From the NCBI GenBank assembly GCA_027459505.1, contig DAIDIE010000040.1, forward strand, positions 1 to 64,000: DNA of 64,000 nucleotides, read 5' to 3'. The notes beneath the pieces are model-generated. The model had not been told where the DNA came from. It saw only the letters and a list, made by a program, of their open reading frames with translations, and made no database searches. This stretch comes from Acidobacteriota bacterium. Its GTDB lineage: Bacteria > Acidobacteriota > Terriglobia > Terriglobales > SCQP01. Shown one piece after another: positions 31,190-32,963 of the stretch (the stretch's first letter is position 1; each line of letters opens with the position of its first letter). The translations under genes were made by a program, and so were the position numbers.

Positions 31190-31286
31190 CCGCTTCAGGC
31201 TAGAAGGGGTGGCGGGTGGCGGTCAATTCACCCATGTGGGGGGAGTGGGAAGCGCTGGCGGGGGAACTGGGCACTGCGATCGCGCC

Positions 31287-31292
31287 TATACT
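31287..31292 (+). promoter_or_regulatory. -10 element of a putative leaderless promoter for the dCTP deaminase gene
   Basis: TATACT ends 8 nt before the ATG at 31301 and no Shine-Dalgarno precedes the gene, so transcription probably starts at or next to the start codon. No -35 is evident. The 111-bp gap to dprA is too short for an AvcI-type antitoxin RNA plus promoter. Confidence 0.45.
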
Positions 31293-31300
31293 ATGCGGCG

Positions 31301-32791
31301 ATGGCTGTGGAACAAGCTCGAAAAAAGTTTAAGCACGAACTGGTGCTGGGCATTGTGTGCCCGCTCGGTACCGATTACAACCAGTTCCTGAAGGCACTTG
31401 AGAATTACCTTCAGCGCTTCGGCTATAGCTCAAACCGAATCCATTTAAGCAGAGATTTTCGCGAAATCCTGGGCAAGTTGGGGACACCCGACGCGGGCGG
31501 TAGCGTACCTTCTTTTAGAACAAAGATTCTTGATGGCGACCGCATTCGCGAAAGGACCGCAAACAACGGGGCGCTGGCGTACTACGCTGTCCACCAGATC
31601 GCGGTGAAGCGCAGAGAGGCATCTGGTGGTGAAAGTGGGCCGTTGCAGGGCACGTGCCATGTTGTGGTCCAACTCAAAAGACCCGAGGAGGTCGAAGTCC
31701 TACGGGCCACCTATGGTTTGGGCTTTTTCCTGATTGGGTTGTTTTCGACAGAAGTGGAGCGATTGCAGTTTTTCAAGAAGAATGGGATTTCTGCGGAGGA
31801 AGCCGCTGAGCTGATTGCCACCGACAGTGAAGAAAAAGGGAACTTCGGGCAGAGAACGACGAAAACCTTCCATCTTGCGGATGTATTCATATCTTCCGCC
31901 GATTTTGCCGTGCAGGCACTCCGGTTCGTCGACCTGGTTTTCGGACATCCGTTCCATACTCCTACGACAGATGAACGCGCAATGTTTATGGCCTACGCCT
32001 CCAGCCTTAGCTCTGCTGATCTGTCCCGACAAGTGGGGGCTGCGATTATCGACCGGAACGGAAACCTGATCGCGGTTGGGTACAATGAAGTTCCGAAAGC
32101 GGGCGGAGGGCCCTACCAAGGAGGGAAATGGAGTCATCGCGATATCGAGGAAGGCCGGGACTACAATCACACGGAGCGGGAGCGGATTGCGCAGAAGATT
32201 TACGCCGAGCTGGAGCTGTCCGGCACGGTTGAGTGGAGCAAGGCGAGGGCGGCCTTTTCAGCGGCCGGCCTTTATGACATCACCGAGTATGGGAGGGCGG
32301 TCCACGCCGAAATGGACGCGATTCTCGCGTGTGGCCGAACCGGGGTGAGCCCCCTCGGATCCGTGCTTTACACGACGACCTTTCCGTGCCACAACTGTAC
32401 ACGGCACATCGTTGCATCCGGGATATCAAAGGTCGTATACGTGGAACCGTATCCGAGGAGCAAAGCAAACGAGCTCCATGGCGACGCCATCAAACTGGCG
32501 GATCGTGCAGAGGTGCTTTGTGGCCCCGCAGTGCCGTTTGTGCCGTTCATTGGCATCGGACCGAGAAGGTACATTGATCTGTTTTCAATGAGGCTCGGCT
32601 CCGGCACTCCGATCGAGAGAGAGCGAGAAGGGGCGCTGGTGGATTGGGAAGAAAGCAAGAGTGCCCCGCGCCTGAGCATGTTGCCGTCCTCTTACATTCA
32701 GCGGGAATTCGAGACGGCCAGGACATTCGAAGAGATGCTTACCAAGAGTGGGAAAGAGGAGAGCAAGGATGAGCGAATCCAAAAAACATGA
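31301..32791 (+). CDS. Probable anti-phage dCTP deaminase (AvcD-like)
   Basis: A 496-residue two-domain protein. The N-terminal half (about 1-200) resembles the P-loop-kinase-like regulatory domain of AvcD proteins, opening ELVLGIVCPLGTDYNQF; the loop has GTD rather than a Walker GKS/T. The C-terminal half is a zinc-dependent cytidine/deoxycytidylate deaminase: HAE in GRAVHAEMDAILACG and the Cys pair in TTFPCHNCTRHI, with YASSLSSADLSRQVGAAI before it. In this family deamination of dCTP/dCMP depletes nucleotides during phage infection. Third-position GC is visibly lower than in dprA and topA, suggesting transfer. It overlaps the next small gene by 23 bp. The alternative is a housekeeping dCMP deaminase, but those lack the N-terminal domain. 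Confidence 0.82.
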   Translation: MAVEQARKKFKHELVLGIVCPLGTDYNQFLKALENYLQRFGYSSNRIHLSRDFREILGKLGTPDAGGSVPSFRTKILDGDRIRERTANNGALAYYAVHQIAVKRREASGGESGPLQGTCHVVVQLKRPEEVEVLRATYGLGFFLIGLFSTEVERLQFFKKNGISAEEAAELIATDSEEKGNFGQRTTKTFHLADVFISSADFAVQALRFVDLVFGHPFHTPTTDERAMFMAYASSLSSADLSRQVGAAIIDRNGNLIAVGYNEVPKAGGGPYQGGKWSHRDIEEGRDYNHTERERIAQKIYAELELSGTVEWSKARAAFSAAGLYDITEYGRAVHAEMDAILACGRTGVSPLGSVLYTTTFPCHNCTRHIVASGISKVVYVEPYPRSKANELHGDAIKLADRAEVLCGPAVPFVPFIGIGPRRYIDLFSMRLGSGTPIEREREGALVDWEESKSAPRLSMLPSSYIQREFETARTFEEMLTKSGKEESKDERIQKT

Positions 32792-32963
32792 CAGGTTCAG
32801 GGTATTCTTAGACGCTCCCGAACGGAATCCGGAATGGGTGGCACGTTCGCTGGAAAACCGGATTGAGGCGGCGATTCGCGTCTATTCAAGTCCCGAATCG
32901 GAGCCCGAAGTTCAGAACGAAGGGTGCGAGTCGCGGCCACGTGCCAAGAAGGCGGCGCGCTGA
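32769..32963 (+). CDS. Small unknown protein coupled to the dCTP deaminase
   Basis: A 64-residue, highly charged protein. The ATG at 32769 lies inside the last codons of the deaminase gene in another frame, with GAGGAGAGC at 32756-32764 upstream. The first half is amphipathic (KKHDRFRVFLDAPERNPEWV, RSLENRIEAAIRVY); the second half is acidic then ends basic (RPRAKKAAR). No domain is recognised. The 23-bp overlap implies translational coupling and a shared function, for example a regulator, antitoxin or cofactor of the deaminase. It could also be a chance frame, though the good ribosome site argues against that. Confidence 0.55.
   Translation: MSESKKHDRFRVFLDAPERNPEWVARSLENRIEAAIRVYSSPESEPEVQNEGCESRPRAKKAAR

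Follow-up and report, generated by a model that had tools for sequence, protein, structure and literature searches.

Organization of the deaminase locus

The window, by which we mean the whole stretch of 64,000 nucleotides that was analyzed, carries on its plus strand a gene (31301..32791) for a 496-residue protein, which profile matches, motifs and a structural model identified as a putative anti-phage dCTP deaminase. The protein was matched by the PADLOC dCTPase model (E = 5e-151) and by Pfam dCMP_cyt_deam_1 (2.9e-18), and its score with NCBIfam NF041025 was 409.9 bits, above the curated cut-off of 400. An N-terminal NMP-kinase-like domain with the degenerate P-loop GIVCPLGTD is followed by a C-terminal zinc deaminase domain containing the HAE and PCxxC motifs (VHAE within VHAEMDAILA, and PCHNC), and a long helix is formed by residues 462-494. 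H335-E337, C363 and C366 were invariant across 47 aligned rows. The AlphaFold2 model (47 sequences) had a mean pLDDT of 89.1. Its C-terminal part matched dCMP deaminases in a structure comparison, and the model also matched, more weakly, adenylate-kinase-related proteins (3h0k/3lw7; TMt 0.74-0.78), which supports the fold of the P-loop-like domain with its degenerate Walker A; by sequence, the only matches in the PDB were chains of the dCMP deaminase type. The preliminary description, made from the DNA sequence, was borne out on both the enzyme and its two-part architecture (GxxCPLGTD plus HAE/PCxxC). By its profile matches, the window deaminase is an ordinary member of the anti-phage dCTP deaminases. 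It has the same two-domain layout and motifs as the enzymes described by NF041025 and PADLOC dCTPase, the difference being that these library models cover the enzyme only; none matched the small partner considered below.

Fourteen genomes of the family, that of the window among them, were searched for dprA; in each of the 10 others where it was detected it lies next to topA, as in the window, and the deaminase was absent from all of the topA/dprA stretches that were fetched. The genome of the window contains a further deaminase-like frame of 350 aa, though a weak one (G000, contig C36:81479-82177).

As had been described before, a second start codon with a ribosome site lies within the last codons of the deaminase gene. 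It opens a frame of 64 residues (32769..32963, plus strand), which overlaps the deaminase frame by 23 nt (32769..32791) and is preceded by the Shine-Dalgarno-like sequence GAGGAG (32756..32761), 7 nt before the ATG. The statement that the encoded protein has no known domain also held, as nothing matched in Pfam, PADLOC or NCBIfam; single-sequence structure prediction gave two helices (pLDDT 70.5). No tRNA was found in the window. An ATG-started ORF of at least 64 residues beginning no more than 60 nt from the stop arose in 202 of 2000 dinucleotide shuffles, and a comparable ORF plus a Shine-Dalgarno-like site in 47 of 2000. The anatomy of the frame by itself is only mildly unusual, barely above chance, so that homology must carry the case for it. 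Codon bias does not decide the matter, because the deaminase's own codon usage already departs from that of the host.

Small partner genes beside related deaminases

Homologous deaminases were collected from 200 relatives, genome contigs (77 loci), 396 phylum genomes, 399 class genomes, 237 genomes of the family with the closest enzymes, viral contigs (6 loci) and 65 plasmid records, four of which were read at the collection stage. The 147 loci scoring at least 80 bits were reduced to 126 by removal of 15 duplicates, three loci without a stop codon, L162 and L164, which were cut off at the 3' side, and L157, which lacked the C-terminus. Partner classes were defined by seeds chosen by eye and profiles then iterated at E<=0.01. 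A downstream partner was recognized at 89 of the 126 loci, and it belonged to class W in 35, Q in 30 and QD in 24 cases. A Q partner lay upstream at 11 further loci; the window, L169 and 24 loci without a recognized partner made up the rest. Among these 24, L063, L067 and L095 have an upstream ORF that is Q-like by eye, not by score. The small gene had been proposed as a companion of the deaminase, and a dedicated small gene indeed proved to be the rule among the relatives of the enzyme. In our survey of literature records on these systems no report of W, Q or QD partners of deaminases was found, and these small families beside dCTP deaminases have not yet been named in databases.

W partners are about 53-97 residues long and share the motif YWxxV...VxxWPxWK. 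Q partners (about 56-100 residues) begin with a QLSLPL-like sequence and have a helix at the C-terminus, in many cases with Trp as the last residue. QD partners have 170 residues or more, and that of L061 matched Pfam DUF488 (1.4e-10). A common origin of the three classes was unsupported, the probabilities given by hhalign being 0.2-0.3 out of 100. The length of the deaminase C-terminal tail was dropped as a marker of partner presence, since the ranges overlapped. At L112, more W-profile matches lay beyond the first partner, 283 and 517 nt downstream of the deaminase stop codon, and may represent several copies. The QD partner downstream of the deaminase at L088 (4206-6107) is fused to a TIR domain (9.5e-20), a fusion that again points to immunity.

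In the samples searched, strong matches to W and QD partners lay beside the enzyme. A W profile of 12 rows, searched over 392 phylum genomes, gave matches at E<=0.01 in nine genomes; all five matches at E<1e-4 adjoin a deaminase, and five weaker ones (0.002-0.009) resemble chance. The sensitivity of this search was limited, as it missed some known W genes (e.g. G029). Searched against the plasmids, a QD protein matched one record, adjoining a deaminase, and one W and one Q protein gave no match. Ten W pairs were compared at the codon level. The dN/dS ratio was 0.17 for L173-L174, 0.22 for L003-L004, 0.34 for L147-L161 and 0.25 for L035-L036 (four differences only); five pairs had saturated dS with pS > pN, and L003-L007 were identical. 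Of seven Q and QD pairs, four allowed dN/dS to be computed, with values of 0.19-0.31. The partner homologues are under purifying selection.

Distribution of partner types on the deaminase tree

Partner type follows the deaminase tree, which comprised 121 of the 126 rows. The partner labels required 16 changes versus a mean of 66.5 after shuffling, and none of 200 shuffles gave a value as low. The QD rows form one branch (97*), and a clade of 55 rows (99*) contains the window, all 35 W rows and a further 19 in which no partner was recognized. Within it, the window deaminase groups with L160, L147, L161, L152, L148, L168 and seven rows of class 'none' (99*). The 64-residue frame is located directly downstream of a W-clade deaminase and on the same strand.

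Six of the seven 'none' rows (L149, L151, L159, L163, L165 and L166) form a subclade with no downstream partner and none recognized upstream. These six relatives share 47-50% identity with the window deaminase (tblastn), and their catalytic motifs HAE and PCxxC are intact. As this sister clade keeps the enzyme without the small gene, the partner is dispensable there. In the seventh row, L169, the W reading is broken by a frameshift, and the deaminase is split too. According to the preliminary description, a chance ORF would be indicated by homologous loci without the small frame or by a lack of codon conservation in it. The outcome was mixed. The former were encountered in the six close relatives with their catalytic motifs kept; as for the latter, conservation was present in the partner-family homologues (dN<dS).

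The sister clade also bears on a type II toxin-antitoxin arrangement, in which the small protein would be an obligatory, labile inhibitor of a constitutively active deaminase and would be removed by infection. The small gene overlaps the deaminase gene in the same operon, toxin-antitoxin systems employing an RNA have been reported for AvcD-type relatives (PMC10511110), and at L007 the deaminase frame is broken (pieces 12-401 and 410-471) while the partner is intact and identical to that of L003, all of which would fit such an arrangement. It is nevertheless rather unlikely in our estimation. The six enzymes retain HAE and PCxxC with no recognizable partner on either side, and other loci do likewise; because a whole subclade lacks the partner, an obligatory antitoxin becomes less likely unless those enzymes are otherwise restrained. 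Furthermore, the order of enzyme then partner is the reverse of that in most type II pairs, which counts against this arrangement.

Relation of the 64-residue frame to the W family

The affiliation of the window ORF was assessed with a 35-member W profile built without it. The ORF scored 9.5 bits, a value reached by 15 of 9999 shuffles, and ranked first of 432 ORFs of 40-120 residues in the 64-kb window, a list in which the longer form of the same frame is also counted; the best independent ORF after it had 7.0 bits. At the cut-off of E<=0.01 the ORF falls in class 'none'. With a narrower W profile it had rank 3, and 214 of 9976 shuffles scored as high. Other, earlier W profiles were equaled by 18/5000, 53/4942 and 108/5000 shuffles, and the first profile, which was made without the closest relatives, by 624/5000 and 750/5000, so that its score was not significant. 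In the alignment with W (RFRVFLDA----PERNPEWVARS-LENR), a gap of four residues is evident; PEW of the WPxW core is kept, and the first Trp is replaced. The pattern PEWVxxS..NxR is common to the window ORF, L148, L152 and L161. In tblastn, the 64-residue sequence had no homologue in the 200 relatives or in the viral contigs; the best E value, 9.6e-4, came from one of the 200 genomes, with a stop inside the match. Because the profile scores coincide with the expected place, strand and position on the tree, the window ORF is likely, with good though not full confidence, to be a divergent member of the W family. As most relatives of the enzyme adjoin a small partner gene, the ORF probably encodes a genuine partner of the deaminase, one that changes fast.

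The alternative that the frame is decayed or due to chance, with loss or erosion of the small gene as in the sister clade and the deaminase working alone, was weighed on the same data. The 47 of 2000 shuffles with a comparable ORF and Shine-Dalgarno-like site, the undecided codon bias, the sub-threshold profile score and the neighboring clade without the gene are compatible with it. A chance frame would hardly be expected to be the best of 432 ORFs at exactly the expected place and strand, or to have PEWVxxS..NxR in common with L148, L152 and L161, and we consider this explanation improbable.

Upstream region and comparison with AvcID

The gap between the deaminase and the divergent dprA-like gene extends over 111 bp (31190..31300), as the preliminary description had given it. 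That the transcript is leaderless, a further proposal made there, is made possible by a -10-like TATACT (31287..31292, plus strand) ending 8 nt before the deaminase ATG; the promoter scan missed this box and returned no plus-strand promoter. In L151 and L159, as in the window, a -10-like box lies 6-8 nt before the deaminase start, suggesting leaderless messages.

For the type III toxin-antitoxin system AvcID, the literature presents AvcI as a noncoding RNA inhibiting AvcD (PMC10511110, PMC12409362); this RNA is placed upstream and given a size below 300 nt, with a minimum of about 171 (PMC10511110). The window resembles AvcID in its homologous deaminase and an adjoining small gene or element. 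It differs in that its partner is located downstream and would be a protein of family W, AvcI being an upstream noncoding RNA, and in that its gap of 111 bp is shorter than the minimal AvcI of about 171 bases (PMC10511110). No RNA antitoxin was recognized upstream of the window deaminase, and Rfam, which may hold no AvcI family, gave no match in the window. Control of the window deaminase by an AvcI-like RNA instead of the small protein would agree with the RNA control published for AvcD (PMC10511110), but the short gap, the possible leaderless start and the lack of an Rfam match make it highly improbable; a variant in which the RNA overlaps dprA or the 3' region is conceivable.

AvcD-type loci themselves were searched upstream with a Q profile built from the 30 downstream partners alone (41 loci, 346 ORFs). 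The loci searched were those of the collected homologues. Matches were obtained, for example, upstream of the deaminases of L062 (6.4e-9), Klebsiella L191 (1.2e-4) and E. coli L124 (0.003); after iteration of the profile 13 loci passed, 11 of them within the 126. A terminal Trp was present in 10 of 13 upstream Q sequences and 19 of 30 downstream Q sequences. Among 331 control ORFs 13 had it, and a few of these are Q-like ORFs below the cut-off. The small ORFs L124:705-887, L191:628-810 and L125:1721-1906, all matching the Q family, and L194:672-842, which is below the Q cut-off, each have a Shine-Dalgarno-like site, are annotated as 'hypothetical protein' and sit at the position described for AvcI. 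For pairs of upstream Q genes, pS/pN was 0.63/0.31, 0.70/0.37, 0.64/0.32 and 0.71/0.51; the members of a fifth pair are one base apart. The upstream Q-family ORF of AvcD-type loci is under protein-level constraint. Hence the earlier proposal that a protein partner separates the window from AvcD systems was not supported in that form, as AvcD-type loci also have a small Q-family ORF with coding signal, located upstream. From these patterns we infer a possible coding role of the AvcI locus in addition to the published RNA inhibition. An ORF in DifV, the precursor of AvcI, was reportedly tested and proved unnecessary for inhibition.

Clamp-binding motif and proposed role of the partners

The clamp-binding motif is given as Q-phi-x-[LM]-[FL] or Q-phi-x-[LM]-x-[FL] in PMC11139829. 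It was present in 17 of 28 Q representatives (mean 0.66 and maximum 5 in 1000 shuffle runs), in 15 of 20 QD representatives (shuffle mean 1.61, maximum 7) and in 4 of 12 upstream Q sequences (shuffle mean 0.13, maximum 2). None of the 35 W members had it (0 of 32 representatives versus a shuffle mean of 0.25, maximum 2), nor was it read in the 64-residue window ORF. Q and QD partners with motifs such as QLSLPL or QLSLF are thereby similar to sliding-clamp binding proteins such as Hda (PMC11139829), from which W partners and the window ORF differ in lacking the motif. The frequency of the motif in Q and QD, far above chance, suggests that the partner may link these deaminases with the replication clamp, or may serve to read it.

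For the window, we somewhat favor a two-gene anti-phage unit consisting of a dCTP/dCMP deaminase and a small regulatory or adaptor protein of the W family. The deaminase would deplete dCTP during infection. The small protein, predicted to consist of a short helix, then a P-x-W motif and then a charged tail, would be translated from the deaminase message through the overlapping frames. In its regulatory or adaptor role it would bind the enzyme and would keep the enzyme quiet, or place it, until infection. Binding and regulation are proposed from the constant company of enzyme and partner, a step from company to function.

More tentatively, and with considerable doubt, the defense dCTP deaminases may generally be two-protein systems, each clade with its own partner (W, Q or QD), a Q-family microprotein being encoded at the AvcI locus as well. 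Q and QD would dock on the sliding clamp, so that the deaminase is held at the replication fork or senses it, and W partners, that of the window included, would achieve this by way of another contact. Should the partners prove to be real subunits, the standard single-gene or RNA-controlled view of these deaminases is incomplete, and how they stay quiet and switch on can be tested directly. The clamp motif hints at a coupling between nucleotide depletion and the replisome, and the AvcID experiments would have to be read anew if the ORF at the AvcI position is coding. The clamp motif of Q and QD and the upstream Q ORF at the AvcI position are of greater importance than the window locus itself.

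In the tails of the deaminases themselves the clamp-binding motif was borderline, with 6 of 126 (shuffle mean 1.08, maximum 6). Clamp-motif-like C-termini (QLDMF, QxxLF, QLPLDL/QLPLGL) were seen in the deaminases of L005, L049, L058, L066, L101, L119, L003 and L004.
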